Source of the DNA: Streptomonospora nanhaiensis
GTDB lineage: Bacteria > Actinomycetota > Actinomycetes > Streptosporangiales > Streptosporangiaceae
Length of the DNA stretch: 64,000 bases
NCBI RefSeq assembly: GCF_013410565.1
Contig: NZ_JACCFO010000001.1
Coordinates: forward strand, 5,580,001-5,644,000
Direction: 5' to 3'
The notes below the pieces were generated by a model. It had not been told where the DNA came from. It worked only from the letters and a program-made list of their open reading frames with translations, and ran no database searches. Position 1 is the first letter of the stretch. Every line of letters starts with the position of its first letter. Shown here piece after piece: positions 8,059-17,034 of the stretch. The position numbers and the translations under genes are program-made.

Positions 8059-8526
8059 TTGAGTGCCGACCTGACACCGCACAGCGGGCTCCGCGCGTCG
8101 GACGCCGACCGGGACCGGGTCGCTCAGCACCTCGCGACCGCGCTCTCCGAGGGCCGCCTGGACCTCGCGGAGTACGAGCAGCGACTGGACACCGCCATGG
8201 GCGCGGTCACCATCGGCGACCTCGTCCCGCTCACCGCCGACCTGCCCGCGCCCCAGGACCCCGCCGGGACGCCCGCGTCCGACGACGGCCCCGTGGACCT
8301 CGCCGAGACCGGCGCCAAGGCCGCCCGCGGCCGCAGGCGCGGCAAGGGCGGCAAGGGCATGGTCGAGGAGTGGCGCTCCTGGGGCGGCGGTGCGGTGATC
8401 ATGACCGGCATCTGGCTCGTCACCAGCATCGCCTCGGGCGAGATGCAGCCGTACTGGCCGCTGATCCCGCTCGGCATCTGGGCGGCGGTCCTGGTGGCCT
8501 CGCTGATCTTCCCCGAGAAGGACTGA
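8059..8526 (+). CDS. DUF1707 domain membrane protein (first of three)
   Basis: A 155-residue protein with an N-terminal DUF1707 (SHOCT-like) domain, residues ~8-55: LRASDADRDRVAQHLATALSEGRLDLAEYEQRL. A charged linker follows, then two predicted membrane helices (GGGAVIMTGIWLVTSIASG and YWPLIPLGIWAAVLVASLIF). The N-terminal domain should be cytoplasmic. DUF1707 is typical of actinobacteria and often sits in front of membrane or adhesin-like regions; no biochemical function is established. Start is TTG 8059, supported by GAGGAGGGG at proper distance; a TAACCT -10 candidate is at 8023-8028. Two paralogues follow on the same strand. Confidence 0.88.
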   Translation: MSADLTPHSGLRASDADRDRVAQHLATALSEGRLDLAEYEQRLDTAMGAVTIGDLVPLTADLPAPQDPAGTPASDDGPVDLAETGAKAARGRRRGKGGKGMVEEWRSWGGGAVIMTGIWLVTSIASGEMQPYWPLIPLGIWAAVLVASLIFPEKD

Positions 8527-8554
8527 TCCTCTTCCCCGAGACGGACCGGCCCGC

Positions 8555-8574
8555 CGGCGGCGGCCCCGCCGCCG
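8555..8574 (+). terminator. GC-rich hairpin after the first DUF1707 gene
   Basis: Self-complementary CGGCGGCGG and CCGCCGCCG arms lie 29 bases after the stop codon. With so short a loop, the outer eight pairs would form. No T-tract follows, and the region is rich in CGG repeats, so the call is weak. Confidence 0.3.
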
Positions 8575-8751
8575 CGCCGGACCGCCCCGCTCGGCGCCCC
8601 GCCGCCCTCCCGCGCCGACCCCGCTGACCTCCCACAACACAGGTCCGCGCCCGTGCGCGCCGCCTCGCGGCGGGGCCCGCCGGGCCGCTTTTCTCCCGCG
8701 CCCGCGCGGCGTATCGTGAAATCCCCATCATCGTGCGGCAGGGGGTGGGCG

Positions 8752-9204
8752 TTGGACGACGAACGCGTCCCGGAGAGCAGAATGCGTGCTTCGGACGCTG
8801 ACCGGGATGCCTGCGCCGAACGCCTCGCCACCGCTCTGTCGGAGGGCCGCCTGGACCTCGCCGAGTACGAGCGCCGCCTGGACGAGGCGATGAACGCGGT
8901 GTTCATCGGCCAGTTGCGCGCGCTGACGGCCGACCTCCCCGCGCCCGCGCCGCCCGCCGAACGCGACGACTTCGCGCCGGCCGCGTCGTCCCGCTCCGCC
9001 CTGGCATCGCCGTGGAAGGACTGGGTAGACGAATGGCGGTGGTGGCTGGGCGGCGCGGTCATCATGACCGGCATCTGGGGTGTCACCAGCATCATGGGGG
9101 GCGACCTGCTGCCCTACTGGCCGCTGGTGCCGCTGGGTATCTGGGCGGCGATCCTGGTCGCCGCCGCCATCTGGCCCGACGAAAGCTCCGGCTCCCGCAG
9201 GTGA
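8752..9204 (+). CDS. DUF1707 domain membrane protein (second of three)
   Basis: A 150-residue paralogue of the preceding protein. It has the same order: DUF1707 domain (MRASDADRDACAERLATALSEGRLDLAEYERRLDEAM), a linker, then two membrane helices (GGAVIMTGIWGVTSIMGG and YWPLVPLGIWAAILVAAAIW). The start TTG 8752 gives MDDERVPESRMRASDAD, which matches the MDDQKLPPDRMRASDAD start of the third copy, so I prefer it over the GTG further upstream and over the internal ATG of MRASD. G-rich sequence in front may serve as a weak ribosome-binding site. It lies 34 bases before the third copy and is probably co-transcribed with it. Confidence 0.85.
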   Translation: MDDERVPESRMRASDADRDACAERLATALSEGRLDLAEYERRLDEAMNAVFIGQLRALTADLPAPAPPAERDDFAPAASSRSALASPWKDWVDEWRWWLGGAVIMTGIWGVTSIMGGDLLPYWPLVPLGIWAAILVAAAIWPDESSGSRR

Positions 9205-9238
9205 GCGTCACCACTCCTCGTGGAGGGACCGACGACCA

Positions 9239-9706
9239 ATGGACGACCAGAAGCTGCCCCCGGACCGGATGCGGGCGTCCGACGCCGACCGCGACGCCTG
9301 CGCCGAGCGCCTGGCCCGCGGCCTCCAAGAGGGCCGGCTGGACCTCGCGGAGTACCAGGAGCGCCTCGGCCTGGCCATGCGCGCCAAGGTCATGGGGGAC
9401 CTGTGGCCGCTGACCGCCGACCTTCCCGAACCGCCCGCCGTGCCCGAGCCCGCGGCGGAGATCCCCCCGGCCCCCGGCGCCCGAGCGGGCCAGCCCGAGT
9501 GGCGCGACCGCCTGGAGCCGTGGCGCGGCCTGGCCGCGATCTCGGTGATCCTGATCGGCATCTGGGGAGTCACCAGCATCATCGCGGCCGAGCCGCTGCT
9601 GTTCTGGCCGATGATCCCGATCGGCTTCATGTTCCTGTTCACCCTGGCCGGGGCGATCGCCGGCACCCCCACCGACCGCCCCGGCGGCGACAGCCGCGGC
9701 CCCTAG
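9239..9706 (+). CDS. DUF1707 domain membrane protein (third of three)
   Basis: A 155-residue third paralogue starting at ATG 9239, with GGAGGGA about 11 bases upstream. DUF1707 domain at residues ~11-50, then a Pro/Ala-rich linker and two hydrophobic helices. The second helix region (LLFWPMIPIGFMFLFTLAGAIAG) has diverged from the conserved YWPLxPLGIWAA of the other two copies, and the first retains the IGIWGVTSI core. Tandem triplication of one family with divergence mainly in the linker and second helix suggests that the copies form a heteromeric complex or respond to different signals; this is inference. Confidence 0.85.
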   Translation: MDDQKLPPDRMRASDADRDACAERLARGLQEGRLDLAEYQERLGLAMRAKVMGDLWPLTADLPEPPAVPEPAAEIPPAPGARAGQPEWRDRLEPWRGLAAISVILIGIWGVTSIIAAEPLLFWPMIPIGFMFLFTLAGAIAGTPTDRPGGDSRGP

Positions 9707-9935
9707 GCCGCCGACGAGCGGTTCCCGAACCTGCCGCGCCCATGGCCATGGGCGCCGCGGACCAGTGGGGACGACCGCGCCGACACCCCCCCTGTGCGCG
9801 CGCCACGTCCCACCGGGTCCTCCTGGACCGCGGCTGTCCCGGGCGGCGCCACGGCACGCGGCGTGGGCGTGCGGGCGGCGCCGCGCACGTCCGCAGGCCG
9901 CGCGGCGGGTGGGCGCGCCCGCGGCCGAGGGTGTG

Positions 9936-12587
9936 TCAGCCGGCGCCGTAGCACAGGAACCCGGCCCCGGCGAGGTGGTCGGCGACCGCGCGGGCCGGGG
10001 TGGCGCCGCCCGCGAGGGCGGAGTGGAAGCCGACCATGGCCTCGGCCACTCCGCGGTCGCTGATCGGCAGCACCGAGGCCACCACCACCGCGCCCCCGCG
10101 CGACAGCAGCGACGCCGCCATGCCCAGCGGCGTGCCCCACGGCGCGGGCACCGAGCCGCCGACCCAGCACGCCGACAGGACCGTGGTCCGCGGCACGTGG
10201 TGCAGGCACTCCAGGTCGTAGGCGAAGAGCGAGGCGTCCTCCAGCACCAGCCCGGAGAGCATCGGGGCCTGCGCGCACGCCAGGCCGTGCGCGGCCAGGT
10301 GCGCGAGGTCGGCGCCGTCGAGTTCGGCCAGCACCGTGCCGACGTCGGCCCGCGCGCCGGTGACCTGGAGGGCGTGCGGGTACAGCCGCCCCAGTGCCCG
10401 GACCTCGGTGGCCGCGCCCTCGGGATCGCGTCCGGCGGCCAGCAGCACCCGCGCCGTGCCCGGCGGCCCGCCGGGCCGCCGCACCGTGCCGCCGGCCGGA
10501 CCGGGCGGGCCCGACCGCGCGGTGTCCCGGGCGGCGAGCCACGCGCGCCCGGAGGGGACCACGCTGACCTCGCGGCCGCGCAGCCCGGGCAGCAGCCCCC
10601 ACGGCAGCGCCTGCATGGCGGGCGCCGGGGCGACCACCATCGGGCGGTCGCCCACCGTGTCGGCGACGGGAGCGAACAGCAGCCGGTCGACGCGGGCCGC
10701 CGCCGTGGCGACCTCGGCGCCGCCGAGGACGCCGGGGGCCTCGGCGGCGCCGTCGACCAGGCGCGGCGCCGCCCCCGGCGGCGCGCCGAGGAGTCGCGCG
10801 CGGGCGGCGGCGACGAGACCGGCGACCGCGGCCTCGATCTCGCCCGCGGGCGCGAGGGGATGGAGGCGGGCGCGGCCGTCGACCACGGTGATCGCGGCGT
10901 CGAACCCGGGGGCCGGCGCGTAGCAGACGAACGCCCGCGCCCCCAGCCGCTCGGCGAGTTCGGCGGCGGCCGGGCCGTGCCGGGGGAGGGTGTGGCCGTG
11001 CGGGGCGGCGCACCCGGGGTGCCACTGCGCCGTGGTGAGGCGGGCGGCGAGGTCGGCGAACCGCTGCCGGGCGTCGGGGTCGCCCCGCAGGGCGCGGGCG
11101 TGGGCCAGCCGGCAGCGGTCGAGCAGCCGCAGCCAGGCGGTGTCGCGGCACGGGCCCGGCGCGCGGTCGAGGGCGTGCCGGTGCTCGATCCAGTCCAGGG
11201 CCAGGGCGGCGTCGCCGCCGCGCAGGGCCACGCGCGCCCCGGCGGCGGCGGCCTCGCGGTGGTGGGAGCGGTGGTGGGCCAGAAGTTCCAGGTGGCGCAG
11301 GCCCGGGGAGGGCGCGCCGCCGGTGCGGCCGAGGAGCGCGCGGCGGGCGCGCGTGTGGTCGCCGTCGGCCAGGGCGCGCAGCGCCGCCGAGGGGAGCGGG
11401 GCGGGCAGGGACAGGGACAGCGGACCCAGCGGGGTGGTGGGCACGCACCGGGCGAGGGCGCCCGCGGTCTCGTCGGTGCCGGCGGGCAGCCCGGCGGCCC
11501 AGTCGGGCAGCGCCGCCAGGGCGGAGCCGGGGAGGTCGGGGAAGGACGGGGTGCGCTGCCCGGCGCGCGGCCCCGGACGCGCCGGCCGCCCGGACCGCCC
11601 CGCGGTCGGCCCGGGGGTGGCGGCGCACCGGGCGGACCACTCGATCAGGGCCGCCAGCCGGGCCCACAGCGAGGTGCGCGCGGCCGCGCGGCGCACCCGC
11701 CGGGCCTGCCGGTAGGCGGAGTCGTGGTCGCCGCGCCCCAGCAGGACCTTGGCGGCCAGCAGCCGGGCGATGGCGATATCGGCCTCGGCGCGGTCGGGGC
11801 CCTCGGGATCGGCCAGTTCGGCGAGCAGGCGGCCCGCCTCGGCCGACATGCCGCCCGCCAGCAGGGCGTCGACGTGGTCGAGCCGCAGGGCCGGGCGCCG
11901 CGCCGCGGGCACCAGGCGGTCGGCCGCGGCGAAGTGGGCGGCCGCAGCGGCGAAGTCGCCGCGCCGGAACTCCACGCAGCCGAGGTTCTGCAGGGCGACG
12001 CCGCGCAGGCAGGCCATGCCCGCGCCCTGGGTGCGGCGCAGGGCGGAGTGGAGGTCGGCGGCCGCGTCGTCGAGCCGCCCGGTGTACATCAGCGCCAGAC
12101 CCCGGTTGCTCAGCATGCCGGGCAGCAGGTGGCGATCGAGATCGGAGTCGGCGCGGGCGAGGGCGGAGTCGAAGGCGGCGACGGCGGACTCGAACCGCCC
12201 CTGCTGGGCGGCGCCGACACCCTGGTGCGCCAGCACGAGGGCCCGGGCCGAAGGGGCGGCGCCGGCCAGGCGGCCCAGCGCGCCACCGACCGCGCCGGGG
12301 CCGTCGCGCATCATGAGCAGACCCAGGCGCGAGGCGCGGGCGTGCGCCGCGGACTCGTCCAGGCCCGCGCGCGCCGCCACGGCCGCCGCCTGGGTGAGCA
12401 GCCGCCGGGCACTGCGCCACCGCCCGAGTTCGCGGTGGGCCATGCCCAGCAGGCGCAGGGCGGTCGAGCGCTCCAGGGGCTCGGGCGCGGTGTCGAGGAC
12501 CTCCTCGCCGCGCCTAAGCGCGGCGACGGGGTCGCGGGCAACGAGGGTGACCGGGGTGCGGACGTCGTCAAGCCGCCCTGGGGCCAT
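9936..12587 (-). CDS. TPR-CHAT domain protein, caspase-like peptidase
   Basis: An 883-residue soluble protein. Residues ~25-300 are helical TPR-like repeats (for example LRLLGMAHRELGRWRSARRLL and LSNRGLALMYTGRLDDAAADLHSAL). A mixed middle follows, and the C-terminal third (~600-883) is a CHAT domain of the caspase-like clan. The catalytic dyad is visible: His767 in LAAHG and Cys807 in TTVLSACWVGG. The fold is thus expected to be an active cysteine peptidase gated by its TPR part. The gene lies downstream of a sigma factor and a small unknown protein on the same strand, about 1.06 kb away. ATG 12587 has GAAAGG before it. Some actinobacterial CHAT proteins have unknown targets, so cleavage of the neighbour is a hypothesis. 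Confidence 0.88.
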   Translation of the reverse strand: MAPGRLDDVRTPVTLVARDPVAALRRGEEVLDTAPEPLERSTALRLLGMAHRELGRWRSARRLLTQAAAVAARAGLDESAAHARASRLGLLMMRDGPGAVGGALGRLAGAAPSARALVLAHQGVGAAQQGRFESAVAAFDSALARADSDLDRHLLPGMLSNRGLALMYTGRLDDAAADLHSALRRTQGAGMACLRGVALQNLGCVEFRRGDFAAAAAHFAAADRLVPAARRPALRLDHVDALLAGGMSAEAGRLLAELADPEGPDRAEADIAIARLLAAKVLLGRGDHDSAYRQARRVRRAAARTSLWARLAALIEWSARCAATPGPTAGRSGRPARPGPRAGQRTPSFPDLPGSALAALPDWAAGLPAGTDETAGALARCVPTTPLGPLSLSLPAPLPSAALRALADGDHTRARRALLGRTGGAPSPGLRHLELLAHHRSHHREAAAAGARVALRGGDAALALDWIEHRHALDRAPGPCRDTAWLRLLDRCRLAHARALRGDPDARQRFADLAARLTTAQWHPGCAAPHGHTLPRHGPAAAELAERLGARAFVCYAPAPGFDAAITVVDGRARLHPLAPAGEIEAAVAGLVAAARARLLGAPPGAAPRLVDGAAEAPGVLGGAEVATAAARVDRLLFAPVADTVGDRPMVVAPAPAMQALPWGLLPGLRGREVSVVPSGRAWLAARDTARSGPPGPAGGTVRRPGGPPGTARVLLAAGRDPEGAATEVRALGRLYPHALQVTGARADVGTVLAELDGADLAHLAAHGLACAQAPMLSGLVLEDASLFAYDLECLHHVPRTTVLSACWVGGSVPAPWGTPLGMAASLLSRGGAVVVASVLPISDRGVAEAMVGFHSALAGGATPARAVADHLAGAGFLCYGAG

Positions 12588-12709
12588 GGCGAGGGCCTTT
12601 CGCGATCGGTGCGTGCGAGGGGTGTCGGGGATGCCCGGGATGCCGGGTTACGCACTCGGCGCGGCGGAGGGGTTTCGGCTGCGCACGGACCTCCGCCGCG
12701 CGGTCACGC

Positions 12710-12715
12710 AAAGTA
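12710..12715 (-). promoter_or_regulatory. Possible -10 box of the TPR-CHAT gene
   Basis: TACTTT on the minus strand, in an unusually AT-rich patch (GTTATTACTTTGCG) within a very GC-rich region, about 120 bases before the CHAT start. No convincing -35 box is seen, so recognition by the neighbouring alternative sigma factor is possible but not shown. Confidence 0.35.
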
Positions 12716-12720
12716 ATAAC

Positions 12721-13649
12721 ACCTGACCTCGGGGCAAGGGGACCCCCGGTTTCGCGCCTGTGGACAACCGGATTCCCCAGGACCCGGACAAAGGCCGCCG
12801 ACGGGGCGGCCGGGCGCGGCCCGGCGCCGCGCGCCGCGGCGGCGGCCCGGACGGCGGGGCGGTCGTGCCGCCGGCGGCCGCCGTCGGAAGCGCATCACCG
12901 CCGCGCAGGCTCCGACGTGCGCGAACGCGCGGGCCGCTGCAGACCGCCGCCCGGACCGGCCGCGCGTGCGCGTGCGCGGGCCCCGCCGACCGCCTCGGTT
13001 GGGTGACGAATCAGCGGCGAAGCGAACCTGGAATACCAGGAATCGGTGACGCGCCGGCAGCCGCCACCGCCGGCGCGCACGCCGCCGGCCGGTGCGCGCC
13101 CACAGCCCCTCGGCGGTGCGGGAGCGTGGCGCTCCAGGCCGAGCCGGTTCGCCAGTGCCCCAGGCGACCGCCTCGACGCGCCCGCGCAGCCATCCGGCGC
13201 GCACACCGGGGCCGGGCTCATCGGCGCGGCCGGGCGGACCAGCACATCGCCCGCTCCCCAGGTGTGGACGGGTGCAGGCCCTCGGCGTTCGCCCGGTTCC
13301 TTGGGCGGCCAGGCTGAACGCGGTCACGGCCTCTCGGAGGTGGTGGCCGGGCATGAGCCCGGCGCTTCGGCGAAGGCGGGGCGGGGGTGTCCATGTCCCC
13401 GTCCCCGCCGGCGGTCCCGCCCGGTCCGGAGCGGTGGACGGTGGTGTGCGACGCCCCGCGCCGGGCGCGCGTGCCGTCCATCGGCCGCGCTGCCACCGTG
13501 CCGGGTCGGGGCCGCGCCGGGCAGCCGCATCGCCGCGGCGAACATTGGCCGGGCCAGGACGCGCGGCGGCGGACGTCCTCGGACCGGCCGGGCGGGCGGG
13601 GGAGCAGGTGCGCGATCCCGGCCTCGGTGGACGCTTTGTGGAAGGCGTT
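12721..13649. other. Long intergenic stretch between the CHAT and small-protein genes
   Basis: I see no convincing gene here on either strand: the open frames are Arg/Pro/Gly-rich GC artefacts without start signals. The only structure is a patch of lower GC around 13000-13055 containing the interrupted palindrome CCTGG-AATA-CCAGG at 13027-13040. The gap is large for this compact genome and separates the CHAT gene from the sigma-small protein pair. Confidence 0.5.
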
Positions 13650-14168
13650 CTAGACGGAGAGCCAGTCGGTGGCGACCGGGGGGTCCTCGGGCCGGTGGAG
13701 GACCAGGCTGATGGGGCCGCGCGGCACGTCGCGGGCGATGAACGTGCCGTAGGCGTCGACGGTGTGGCCGGTGGTCGCGCGCAGGTGGCGGACCTGCACG
13801 GTGGTGGGGCCCGGCGGCGCCACTCTGCCCACCACGTCGCAGCGCTCGGCGCGCGGGGTGATCTCCAGGTCGATGGTCACGCCCTCGGCGTGGAAGGTGA
13901 CGTAGCGGGGGGCCTCGTCCAGGAGGGCGGCGGCGCGGATGCCCGTGGCCGGGGTCTCGACGGAGTCGGCGCTGACACCGGCGACCACGGCGGGGTCCAC
14001 GCGCATCGCGTAGGCCGCCCGCGCCGCGGCGCGCATCCGCGGGCTCATCTCGTAGGCGGAACCGCCGTCCGGCGCGGTGCCGGACCCGCGGTGCGCCCCG
14101 GTGTCCCCGGGCCGCGCGTCGGGGAGGGGGCGGCCGGGCCGGGGGCCGGGCGAGTCGTCACGGGTCAT
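13650..14168 (-). CDS. Unknown protein coupled to a sigma factor and upstream of TPR-CHAT
   Basis: A 172-residue protein that I do not recognise as a named family. Residues 1-42 are Pro/Gly/Asp-rich and probably disordered; 43-65 form a helix (SPRMRAAARAAYAMRV); the remainder, from ~85, reads as alternating beta-strands (RYVTFHAEGVTIDLEITP, CDVVGRVAPPGPTTVQVRH, AYGTFIARDVPRGPISLVLHRP) like a small beta-sandwich of the carboxypeptidase-regulatory type. There is no membrane segment. Its ATG lies inside the end of the sigma factor gene (11-base overlap), so the two are coupled. Position and size suit an anti-sigma factor, an adaptor or a peptidase substrate; none is shown. Confidence 0.75.
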   Translation of the reverse strand: MTRDDSPGPRPGRPLPDARPGDTGAHRGSGTAPDGGSAYEMSPRMRAAARAAYAMRVDPAVVAGVSADSVETPATGIRAAALLDEAPRYVTFHAEGVTIDLEITPRAERCDVVGRVAPPGPTTVQVRHLRATTGHTVDAYGTFIARDVPRGPISLVLHRPEDPPVATDWLSV

Positions 14169-14742
14169 GCTGCGGGCCTTTCTCCTCGTTGGCTTCGCCG
14201 AGCAGGCGCTGCAGGCGCCGCCGCACGCGGCGGCGGGCCGCCGGGACCTCCTCGGGGCGCAGCCCCGTGCGCGCGGCCACCGTGCGGGCCGGCGAGCGCG
14301 GCTCCTCCAGTTCCAGGTAGGCGATCGTGCGGTCGGGCTCGCGCAGCGCCGCGATCGCCTGCCGCACCATGTCGCCGCGTTCGGCCGCGAGGTGGATCGC
14401 CTCGGGGCTGCGCGGGTCGGCGAGGTCCAGCAGAGCGGGGTCGCGGGGCGCCGTGCGCCGGGCGATCCGGTGCTGGCGGCGGCACGCGTTGTGCGCGGAG
14501 GTGGCCAGCCACGCGCCCACGCGCTCGGGTGTGTGGAGGGTGGACAGGTGCTGGGCCAGGTTGAACCACACGGTCTGCTCGGCGTCCTGGGCGTCGTGCA
14601 CGGACAGCCCGTAGCCGCGCACGATAGAGCCGACGAGGCCGCCGAAGCGGTCGAGGAGCGCCTCCCACGCGGCGGGGTCGTCGCCCCGGGCGAGCGCCAC
14701 CAGCTCGCTCGTCGAGACCTCCGCATAGGGCTGGTCAGCCAC
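14158..14742 (-). CDS. Sigma-70 family RNA polymerase sigma factor (ECF-like)
   Basis: A 194-residue two-domain sigma factor. Region 2 spans residues ~15-85: an AWEALLDRFGGLVGSIVRGYGL helix, then DAQDAEQTVWFNLAQHL and GAWLATSAHNACRRQHR for -10 recognition. Region 4 spans ~125-180, with REPDRTIAYLELEEPRSPARTVAARTGLRPEEVPAARRRVRRRLQRLL as the -35 binding helix-turn-helix. The GTG start at 14742 is the only canonical one placing the first helix correctly. The next gene overlaps its stop. No typical membrane anti-sigma factor is adjacent; instead a soluble unknown protein and a TPR-CHAT peptidase follow. Target promoters are unknown. Confidence 0.9.
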   Translation of the reverse strand: MADQPYAEVSTSELVALARGDDPAAWEALLDRFGGLVGSIVRGYGLSVHDAQDAEQTVWFNLAQHLSTLHTPERVGAWLATSAHNACRRQHRIARRTAPRDPALLDLADPRSPEAIHLAAERGDMVRQAIAALREPDRTIAYLELEEPRSPARTVAARTGLRPEEVPAARRRVRRRLQRLLGEANEEKGPQHDP

Positions 14743-14960
14743 TCCTACCCCCAGTAGACTCACAGCTCCCGCCTCGCGCGCAGGATCACAGTAGCCGCTC
14801 GCCCGAGGGGAAGCGGGGAAACGCCGGATCCGGCCGCGGTGAAGACCTGGTGCCGATGGTGCACATGGGGCACAATGGGGCGAGGAAAAACCGGGACGGA
14901 CAGCTCCTCTTCGGGTACGAGGGCGTCGGGGAAGCGCACTCGTTCGTATCAGGAGGTTCG

Positions 14961-15458
14961 GTGTCCGCACGTGGCGTCTTGTACGTCCACTCCGCGCCCG
15001 CGGCGCTGTGCCCACACGTCGAGTGGGCGGTCGCGGGTGTGGTTGGCGTGCCTGTGAAACTCGACTGGGGTGCCCAGCCCGCGGCTCCCGGCGCTCATCG
15101 CGCCGAGCTGAACTGGCAGGGCGCGCCGGGCACTTCCGGTGCCATCGCATCGGCGCTCAACGGCTGGCAGCGGCTGCGCTTCGAGGTCACCGAGGAGCCC
15201 ACCCCCGGTTGCGACGGCGTGCGCTACAGCTACACGCCCACACTCGGCATCTTCACCGCGGTCACCAGCGCCTCCGGCGAGGTGCTGGTCTCCGAGGCCC
15301 GGCTGCGCAACGCCGTGGAGCGCGCCGCCGCCCAGGAGGACATCGACCTCGCGGCCGAGCTGGACCGCCTCACCGGGCGCGAGTGGGACGAGGAGCTGGA
15401 GCCCTTCCGCTACGCCGGCGACGGCGCCCCCGTCCGCTGGCTGCACGCGGCCGGGTAG
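14961..15458 (+). CDS. DUF3145 domain protein
   Basis: A 165-residue soluble protein that matches the actinobacterial DUF3145 family over its whole length: MSARGVLYVHSAPAALCPHV at the start, then HRAELNWQGAPGT, the GWQRLRFEVTEEPT strand, YSYTPTLGIFTAVT, and a C-terminal acidic helix. The family is conserved in actinobacteria and of unknown function. GTG 14961 is chosen because AGGAGG lies five bases before it; the longer frame upstream is not supported. The gene is divergent from the sigma factor, with 218 bases between them. Confidence 0.9.
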   Translation: MSARGVLYVHSAPAALCPHVEWAVAGVVGVPVKLDWGAQPAAPGAHRAELNWQGAPGTSGAIASALNGWQRLRFEVTEEPTPGCDGVRYSYTPTLGIFTAVTSASGEVLVSEARLRNAVERAAAQEDIDLAAELDRLTGREWDEELEPFRYAGDGAPVRWLHAAG

Positions 15459-15792
15459 CCGCCGCCACCCGCTTTCCCGCGCGCGGGCCGCGCCCGCGGC
15501 GGCGCTCCGGCCCCGGGCGCCGCGGAGGCCGGGGACCGCCCGTGCGCTCCGGCTCCCGTCACCGCGCCGCGCCCCGGCGCGTTCCGAGCCGGCCCGGCCG
15601 CCGGTCGCCGACGTGCGCCGCGCCACCTGACACGGGCCTCCGCCGCGCCGCGGCGGGAAACCGGGGGCGGCACGATACGGTAAAGAGCCGACTTTGCGCG
15701 CGCCCCGCACCGGTCATCAGCGCCGTCCCGGGAAGGGACCGATGCACCCGGCGACTCTGGCCCTGGGCAGCTTAGGACTGGAGACGAACAAC
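15459..15792. other. Intergenic region with a candidate promoter for the phospholipase D gene
   Basis: No gene seen. A GC-rich segment with hairpin potential follows the DUF3145 stop. A TACGGT -10 candidate at 15676-15681 precedes the phospholipase gene. An in-frame ATG at 15742 with GGAAGGG four bases before it is an alternative start for that gene. Confidence 0.4.
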
Positions 15793-17034
15793 ATGTCGCG
15801 ACGACGCTCCGTGGTCACCAAGATCCTGCTGCGGGTGCTGCTGGGCTTCTTCGCCGCCCAGCTCGCGGTGATCCTCGGACTCATCGGCATCAACCAGTGG
15901 CGCAAGCGCGTCCGCCCCCACCACGCCGGGTTCCCGCGGACCCCGCCCACCTCGGTGCGGGTGGCCGAGTCCGACATCACCACCTACACCTACGGCGAGG
16001 ACCTCTACCGCGACATGCTGGAGGCGATCCGCGGCGCTCGCCACCGGATCATGTTCGAGTCCTACATCGTCAAGGGCGACGCCACCGGCCACGAGTTCAA
16101 GCGCGCGCTGATCGAGGCGGCGCGCCGCGGGGTCGAGGTCTACGTCGTCTACGACGCCTTCGCCAACCTCGTCGTCCCGCGCAGCTTCTTCCGGTTCCCG
16201 CCGGAGGTCAACGTCATCGAGTACCCCCTGCTGCGCCCCGGCCTGCTCCTGCTGGACATCCGCAAGTCCGGCCGCGACCACCGCAAGATCCTCACCGTCG
16301 ACGGCGAGGTCGGGTTCATCGGCGGCTACAACGTGGGCTCGGTCTACGCCACCCAGTGGCGCGACACCCACCTGCGGATCAGCGGCCCCTCGGTGTGGGA
16401 GCTGGAGAACGCGTTCCGCGACTTCTGGAACATGCTGCGCACTGACGACCAGCCCGAGATCGCCGACACCGGCACCCACGAGTGGACACCCAGCATCCGC
16501 GCCCACCGCAACGTGCCCGAGCAGCTGGTCTACCCCATCCGGGGCATGTATTTGGAGGCCATCGACCGGGCGCACACCCACATCTACATCACCCAGGCGT
16601 ACTTCATCCCCGACCGGGAGATCCTGGCCGCGCTGGTCCGGGCCGCCCAGCGCGGCGTGGACGTGCGGATCCTCATCCCCGAGCGCTCCAACCACATCGT
16701 GGCCGACTGGATCTCGCGCGGCTTCTACTCCGAGCTGCTGCGCGGCGGCGTGCGCCTGTGCCTGTACCAGGACGCCATGGTGCACGCCAAGACCGCCACC
16801 ATCGACGGCCGCTGGTCCACCGTGGGCACCGCCAACGTCGACCGGCTCAGCCTCACCGGCAACTACGAGATCAACGTCGAGATCTTCGACGAGGGCCTGG
16901 CCTACCACCTGGAGCAGGTCTTCGCCAAGGACTGCACCAACGTCCGGGTCCTCACCGCGGAGGAGTGGAGCCGCCGCCCCGTGGTGGCCAAGCTGTGCGA
17001 GACCCTGCTGGTGCCGCTGCGCCCGCTGCTGTGA
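15793..17034 (+). CDS. Phospholipase D family protein, cardiolipin synthase-like
   Basis: A 413-residue membrane-anchored enzyme. One N-terminal helix (residues ~10-32, ILLRVLLGFFAAQLAVILGLIGI) is followed by two PLD domains with HKD motifs: DHRKILTVDGEVGFIGGYNVGS (an H-R-K variant of H-x-K-x4-D) and VHAKTATIDGRWSTVGTANVDRLS. The two motifs in tandem are the hallmark of bacterial cardiolipin synthases, which condense two phosphatidylglycerols; an alternative phospholipase or nuclease activity cannot be excluded. ATG 15793 has GGAG at nine bases; ATG 15742 in frame would add 17 residues. It lies just before the first kinase-regulator-exporter module, but on its own promoter. Confidence 0.88.
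   Translation: MSRRRSVVTKILLRVLLGFFAAQLAVILGLIGINQWRKRVRPHHAGFPRTPPTSVRVAESDITTYTYGEDLYRDMLEAIRGARHRIMFESYIVKGDATGHEFKRALIEAARRGVEVYVVYDAFANLVVPRSFFRFPPEVNVIEYPLLRPGLLLLDIRKSGRDHRKILTVDGEVGFIGGYNVGSVYATQWRDTHLRISGPSVWELENAFRDFWNMLRTDDQPEIADTGTHEWTPSIRAHRNVPEQLVYPIRGMYLEAIDRAHTHIYITQAYFIPDREILAALVRAAQRGVDVRILIPERSNHIVADWISRGFYSELLRGGVRLCLYQDAMVHAKTATIDGRWSTVGTANVDRLSLTGNYEINVEIFDEGLAYHLEQVFAKDCTNVRVLTAEEWSRRPVVAKLCETLLVPLRPLL

Follow-up and report, generated by a model that had tools for sequence, protein, structure and literature searches.

A TPR-CHAT peptidase, a small CarboxypepD_reg-like protein and an ECF54-type sigma factor may form a conserved proteolytic module in Streptomonospora nanhaiensis and its order

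We analysed a stretch of 64,000 nucleotides from Streptomonospora nanhaiensis (contig NZ_JACCFO010000001.1, positions 5,580,001 to 5,644,000), hereafter the window, whose own numbering is used throughout. Its minus strand carries three genes, encoding a sigma factor of the extracytoplasmic function (ECF) type, a small partner protein and a caspase-like peptidase with tetratricopeptide repeats (TPR) and a CHAT domain (Table 1). The sigma and small-protein genes share 11 bases (14158-14168). The three genes, their coordinates and strand, this overlap and the His767/Cys807 dyad had been read from the DNA in the original prediction and were all confirmed in the sequence. That prediction went on to propose that the CHAT peptidase cleaves the small protein and thereby changes sigma activity. 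A protease–sigma reading of the locus is plausible and is partly anticipated in print.

Table 1. Features of the trio locus and its neighbour, in the numbering of the 64-kb window
Feature	Position	Strand	Description
ECF-type sigma factor	14158..14742	-	194 residues, GTG start at 14742; region 2 = residues 30-96; Sigma70_r2, TIGR02937
Small partner protein	13650..14168	-	172 residues; N terminus 1-40 low confidence, short helix 43-54, CarboxypepD_reg-like beta-sandwich ~88-172
Arg78 of small protein	13935..13937	-	In the linker preceding the beta-sandwich; candidate cleavage or contact residue
Spacer between small gene and CHAT gene	12588..13649		1,062 bp; alignment of 6 genus members including the window
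TPR-CHAT caspase-like peptidase	9936..12587	-	883 residues; PF12770 and TPR models, AlphaFold2 model, fold matches
N-terminal part of TPR solenoid	11904..12464	-	Residues ~42-228 (Pfam); helical to ~residue 520 in the model
CHAT peptidase domain	9981..10700	-	Residues 630-869, Pfam
Catalytic His767	10287..10289	-	Invariant in aligned CHAT domains
Catalytic Cys807	10167..10169	-	Invariant in aligned CHAT domains
DUF3145 gene	14850..15458	+	PF11343, 8.3e-72; divergent from the sigma gene

To locate the trio in relatives, profile searches with the small protein, the TPR-CHAT protein and the sigma factor (E up to 1e-5, 1e-30 and 1e-25, respectively) were combined by position across 101 genomes of the order, of 3.4-11.5 Mb. 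The small protein was present in 101/101 genomes, and the CHAT and sigma subfamilies in 100/101 each; one genome, G079, had no sigma or CHAT match and still carried the small gene. Linkage was counted on all 133 CHAT matches, all 139 sigma matches and 136 of the 141 small-protein matches, the other five being second pieces of genes already counted. A small gene lay within 10 kb of 127 of the 133 TPR-CHAT genes, a linkage that chance cannot explain in genomes of this size, and chance neighbours were thereby excluded. The conserved three-gene synteny on which the original prediction depended is strongly borne out, since 121 of the 133 CHAT genes had both partners within 10 kb. The six CHAT matches that lacked a small gene were two contig-edge pieces (G029), one in G036, where the small gene lies near the end of another contig, two weak matches (2.4e-33 and 3.1e-31) and one at G073:C68. 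A sigma gene was found within 0.8 kb and on the same strand for 125/136 small genes, and 14/139 sigma matches had no small gene within 0.8 kb. Relative to the 136 small genes, CHAT was downstream and co-oriented in 101, divergent in 26, co-oriented upstream in 1 and not within 10 kb in 8.

The small protein extends beyond this sample. By single-sequence search it was found in 172/200 genomes of the order. It was also found in 124/394 genomes of a class sample (83 of them outside the order) and in 29/296 of a phylum sample (21 outside the class); a tblastn search for plasmid homologues with a relative's small protein gave no match. From the single-sequence matches we picked 60 order loci, the best first and then for genus diversity, and from the class search 32 loci of other orders. 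Sigma was adjacent in 59/60 order loci and CHAT was co-oriented downstream in 52/60; in one of these 52 the contig ends within the TPR-CHAT gene. In the class loci, sigma was adjacent in 31/32 and CHAT was present in the fetched stretch in 28/32 (21 downstream, 5 divergent, 1 upstream and 1 convergent). The distance between the small-protein and CHAT profile matches was below 100 bp in 16 of the 52 co-oriented order loci. The spacer between these genes ranged from ~0.4 to 1.1 kb in six genus members and was hardly conserved, save for a short stretch right before the CHAT start. No Rfam family matched 9000-16000 at gathering scores, and a terminator and sigma-70 promoter scan of 9600-15200 found no site, spacer included. 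Two loci, L202 (genome G264) and L146 (G079), had a small gene with neither a sigma nor a CHAT match; L202 still had a gene for an S8-family protease (subtilase) upstream.

The CHAT domain of the window protein matched PF12770 with 74.8 bits against a cut-off of 24, and the TPR part was recognised as four stretches of PF07719. His767 and Cys807 were invariant in 52/52 aligned CHAT domains, window included. In a wider set of 87 rows, His was kept in 83/83 and Cys in 82/82 of the rows that covered the position, the other four and five rows ending before it. As judged from these alignments, the peptidase dyad is under strict constraint. An AlphaFold2 model of the protein had a predicted local distance difference test (pLDDT) score of 84.6 and a predicted template modelling (pTM) score of 0.86. 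It matched the TPR-CHAT subunit of Craspase (8eey, Z 24.9, root-mean-square deviation (rmsd) 12.0 over 531; 8d9g, Z 25.1, rmsd 13.8 over 479), but these whole-chain Z scores are not specific, since an unrelated TPR protein scores as high and the TPR part drives much of the score. It also matched the separase protease domain (5fc3, Z 22.4, rmsd 3.5 over 307). When the CHAT-domain profile was searched against the PDB, the best match was 8rot, a 'CHAT domain-containing protein' (2e-12), with Craspase TPR-CHAT at 2.3e-7 and Csx29 at 2.2e-5; separases reached E 0.04 at best, which is not significant. A literature search on the nearest solved CHAT protein (8rot/8rw5) returned nothing relevant. The window's genome has a second, weaker CHAT match (L002, G000:C1:4595123-4595329) at 32.2 bits, above the cut-off and absent from the subfamily-profile matches.

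The small protein was modelled as an all-beta domain with a mean pLDDT of 84.9 (AlphaFold2). Residues 1-40 had pLDDT 53-73 and residues 71-80 a mean of 70. This low-confidence N terminus, together with the lack of any strongly hydrophobic stretch on the Kyte-Doolittle scale, agrees with the earlier claim that the protein is soluble with a disordered N terminus. The same scan found no membrane-like stretch in the sigma factor, the CHAT protein or 16 S8 open reading frames (ORFs) of relatives, and by this sequence measure all parts of the module look cytoplasmic. In an alignment of 38 members the N terminus varied and the short helical segment was conserved; a linker bearing Arg78 followed, and the C-terminal beta-sandwich closed with a conserved T-x-W. 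Position 78 was Arg in 38/38 rows, and we keep Arg78 as a candidate cleavage site. PF13620 (CarboxypepD_reg) matched 16 of the 38 members (E up to 0.1; best 1.9e-5), the window member being unmatched. The closest structural match to the model (VIA-align) had Z 8.7 and rmsd 2.3 over 87, a middling score common for beta-sandwiches of this kind. The fold look-up rows shown included no anti-sigma structure, which does not exclude one. We rejected the idea that the protein is itself a carboxypeptidase, as no peptidase domain is visible in it, only the regulatory-like beta-sandwich. In one relative (G121, locus L155, minus strand, ~7.7-8.2 kb), one of the beta-sandwich loops encoded by the small-protein frame is extended by a very long insertion of low complexity.

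The sigma factor matched Pfam Sigma70_r2 (1.8e-8) and TIGR02937 (9e-12 over residues 25-180, spanning both regions). Region 2 was found in 23/23 aligned members; Pfam models of region 4 matched only 2-3 of the 23 (E up to 0.01), and region 4 is thus divergent. The closest named relative found was from Streptomonospora mangrovi, at 94% identity. The part of the review PMC8999054 available to us describes an ECF group, ECF54 (Huang 2015 and Casas-Pastor 2021, as given there), whose neighbours are a carboxypeptidase, a subtilase and a CHAT protein, and for which proteolytic control was proposed. The loci studied here likewise have an ECF sigma factor with conserved CHAT, 'carboxypeptidase' (CarboxypepD_reg-like in the present loci) and subtilase neighbours. 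Because all three neighbour types match, ECF54 is the best assignment for the sigma factor by gene context. The small protein presumably corresponds to the 'carboxypeptidase' of the ECF54 neighbourhood. Two differences stand out, in that the window's genome is without the subtilase and the present small protein is no carboxypeptidase. With the subtilase neighbour missing, the window locus is an S8-less variant of the ECF54 type and not a full member.

Subtilase genes are a regular part of the locus in relatives. PF00082 was detected in 2 candidate ORFs of 4 scanned and in 4 of 5 scanned, and D148, H188 and S358, which we take to be the S8 catalytic triad, were invariant in 16/16 aligned members. 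An S8 profile match lay directly upstream of sigma on the same strand in 29/60 order loci (weak and partial in L143, 3e-8), and S8 was present in 28/32 class stretches in varied arrangements. Across the 101 genomes, 66 of 67 S8 genes of the module's family lay less than 5 kb from a small gene; the family was found in 48 of these genomes, and 53 had the small gene without S8. No S8 gene of this family was found in the 64-kb window, nor in the window's genome at E up to 1e-50, which is why the original prediction could not see it. The wider unit is thus S8 – sigma – small – TPR-CHAT, and the form in the window is a reduced one. Because S8 is spread across the class, it was probably lost from the window's lineage rather than never gained.

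These data can be drawn together in a model in which CHAT acts on the small protein and so changes sigma activity, within a proteolytic module of the ECF54 type that here lacks the subtilase. This is the explanation we favour, tentatively and at a little short of even confidence. In it, the TPR part would sense a protein or peptide signal and unlock the caspase-like CHAT peptidase, which would then act on the small CarboxypepD_reg-like protein. The latter would hold the sigma factor (and S8, where present) in check, or deliver sigma to its target. Once the small protein was lost or cleaved, sigma would be free to redirect transcription, including that of its own module in some lineages. We infer that the small protein is a substrate or regulator of CHAT and that it inhibits sigma.

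Several observations weigh against this model. None of Pfam, NCBIfam and PADLOC gave a match to the window's small protein at E up to 1. A search of all PDB chains to E 10 with the profile of the 38-member alignment returned only three unrelated rows (E 0.46-1) and no Csx30, so that, at the level of sequence, kinship of the small protein with Csx30 is unsupported. The motif HxxxCxxC, which defines zinc-binding anti-sigma (ZAS) proteins, is absent from the 172-residue protein, which cannot hold it because the sequence has one Cys. Arg78 is not universal, since in a wider small-protein set 85 of the 95 rows filled at this position have Arg; in this set and in the small-protein tree, five order loci seen again from the other side (L221-L224, L226) were counted once. 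The top fold row for the TPR-CHAT model was the unrelated TPR protein 8jal (CRL2-APPBP2, Z 26.1). Asp844 is invariant and lies 37 residues after Cys807, whereas the Arg-binding Asp of human separase (D2070) lies 41 residues after the catalytic Cys (C2029; PMC12609080 and PMC10317155, in the parts available to us); with this difference in spacing, a separase-like Arg pocket at Asp844 is unsupported. In the available part of PMC8999054, ECF54 is described without an anti-sigma factor. Finally, six of the 133 CHAT loci keep the small gene with no ECF54-like sigma within 10 kb. A sigma-profile search of these six loci and one further small-gene locus (L229-L235) found no ORF at E up to 1. In each of the seven, the S8 profile matched upstream of the small gene and in the same orientation, and the four proteins examined with Pfam (L229, L231, L233 and L235) were confirmed as S8.

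Because the sigma-less loci keep both the small protein and CHAT, these two form the tightest pair, and the small protein is not simply a dedicated anti-sigma factor. The six loci, with S8 co-oriented upstream, thereby speak for an alternative in which the small protein serves the proteases as adaptor or chaperone and does not inhibit sigma. The fold points the same way, as the CarboxypepD_reg-like beta-sandwich is not, to our knowledge, a known anti-sigma fold. Yet adjacent or overlapping genes are the usual arrangement of a sigma factor and its regulator, and 125 of 136 small genes have a same-strand sigma gene within 0.8 kb, the two overlapping in the window. Even with the accessible text of PMC8999054 counted in its support, we consider this alternative doubtful.

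The sigma-less loci also bear on what the sigma factor transcribes. In 24 divergent S8/CHAT intergenic regions, TATCA and GCTC occurred 15-18 bases apart in 12, where the best pair in 20 shuffles reached 9 or fewer. The pattern GTATCA-N14-17-CTC was found toward S8 in 15/24 of these regions but never toward CHAT, against a mean of 0.04 and a maximum of 1 in 200 shuffles. Across all fetched DNA of these sets it had 63 matches in 634,691 bp on both strands, about 1 per 10 kb, some of them the same sites. From its sequence the motif looks like an ECF promoter. All six sigma-less loci among these regions carry it (four, L231-L234, being near-identical in sequence there), which suggests that a sigma factor from elsewhere in the genome drives these loci, acting in trans. 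A similar TGTATC-N15-18-CTC lay upstream of S8 in only 6/29 S8-bearing order loci and was found in 0/27 sigma-upstream and 0/26 CHAT-upstream regions of S8-less loci, window included; GTATCA-N14-17-CTC itself had no match in the window. No common promoter emerged in the S8-less loci, where the upstream signal is the DUF3145 neighbour. Ten S8-bearing loci (L126, L131, L133, L134, L136, L149, L150, L152, L155 and L158) have a conserved element ~300-340 bases upstream of the S8 match, which starts GAGAGACTACCGTC, with CACCAGAG ~20 bases later, and differs from the GTATCA motif; it may act as a promoter or leader, either for the module or for the neighbouring gene.

The motif speaks for a second alternative, in which the sigma factor responds to a different signal and the proteases are its output rather than its regulator: it would transcribe its own operon (S8, small protein and CHAT) for a proteolytic stress or developmental programme. 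The orientation of the motif toward S8 and its presence in all six of those sigma-less loci favour such a scheme. The motif was, however, discovered and counted on the same, partly related sequences, its counterpart is confined to a minority of the S8-bearing order loci, and it is by our own inference that the module sigma reads it upstream of S8 in some relatives. Overall, we find this scheme unlikely.

A DUF3145 gene lies beside the sigma gene, divergent from it (Table 1), and was present in the fetched stretch of 30/31 S8-less versus 9/29 S8-bearing order loci; it was not found in the 32 class stretches of other orders. DUF3145 probably marks a fixed chromosomal site and is not part of the mechanism. 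Taken with the near-universality of the module in the order sample, the adjoining DUF3145 gene suggests that the module is inherited vertically at a fixed position and has a core function. That the trio is held together by such inheritance only, with no functional interplay, as the frequent DUF3145 neighbour might suggest, is highly improbable. Other families of the class keep the genes linked although they arrange them differently, in stretches where DUF3145 was not found, and in the small-protein tree (a quick tree of 130 columns in which many forks are open) a supported cluster unites 11 divergent, S8-bearing loci of two families. From a mobile defence cassette one would expect a patchy distribution, which makes such a cassette less likely; likewise, presence in 100-101 of 101 order genomes, often beside DUF3145, weakens a defence-island reading. 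The module looks like core physiology rather than a defence island, which suggests a role in stress, development or cell fate rather than in phage defence. Just past the 3' end of the CHAT gene, three tandem DUF1707 (SHOCT-like) genes lie on the plus strand (8059-9706).

The favoured model, a CHAT-driven change of sigma activity by way of the small protein, invites comparison with known systems. In type III-E CRISPR systems, Csx29 cleaves the sigma inhibitor Csx30 (PMC10028731, in the part available to us). This CASP/Craspase system (Csx29–Csx30–CASP-sigma) resembles the present locus in having a TPR-CHAT peptidase beside an ECF-like sigma factor and a third protein, and the window protein shares with Craspase a similar predicted TPR-CHAT fold, detectable CHAT sequence similarity and the His/Cys dyad. 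It differs in that the 172-residue small protein of the window is unmatched in sequence to Csx30 chains in the PDB and that the module occurs in nearly every genome of the order sample. Positions 1-30000 of the window held only two-copy repeat families and no regular CRISPR-like array, and no search aimed at Cas7-11 was made. The suggestion that the trio is an independent version of the Csx29–Csx30–sigma system is supported for the TPR-CHAT protein, which resembles the type III-E peptidase by profile and predicted fold, and unsupported for the small protein, which shows no sequence relation to Csx30 in the search of PDB chains. The analogy is fair in the sense that the trio may work like that system, not that it belongs to it. 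Separase (peptidase family C50) also places a clan CD peptidase after a helical solenoid, and its protease domain matches the window model in fold; it is eukaryotic, its CHAT-profile match is not significant, and its Arg-binding Asp is at C+41 (human) as against C+37 for Asp844. The PADLOC candidate defence family BovA (PDLC03831) matched 14 of 24 aligned TPR-CHAT members at E up to 0.001 (best 7.8e-10), but the window protein, at E 0.0056, fails that threshold and the genomic setting looks core.

The association of CHAT with ECF54 is already in print (PMC8999054) and is not new. Added here are the wider unit containing S8, the S8-less genome of the window, the CarboxypepD_reg-like partner, the sigma-less loci and the near-universality in the order. 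The accessible text of that review makes no mention, for ECF54, of an invariant small partner, of sigma-less loci or of a common promoter motif; the primary papers may do so. A literature search on CHAT with sigma factors and on ECF54, with subscription papers mostly outside its reach, found, among the papers listed, no other that from its entry treats the module, and the term CHAT is absent from a paper on conflict systems (10.7554/eLife.52696).

A broader arrangement is possible, and we put it forward with less assurance than the favoured model itself. The module may be a cytoplasmic switch with two proteases, a caspase-like TPR-CHAT sensor and a subtilase, both served by a single small CarboxypepD_reg-like gatekeeper, which would control an ECF sigma factor as well. 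It would then be a counterpart of Craspase that lacks CRISPR, has a fixed place in the chromosome and occurs almost throughout the order. The window's lineage would then have kept sensor, gatekeeper and sigma, and others sensor, gatekeeper and subtilase, with the detached loci possibly joined in one regulon through a common promoter.

If CHAT does act on the small protein to change sigma activity, the coupling of caspase-like cleavage to a sigma factor would be a standing signalling route in a large bacterial group, and not an oddity of a rare CRISPR subtype. ECF54, for which the available part of PMC8999054 names no anti-sigma factor, would also gain a concrete and testable partner.

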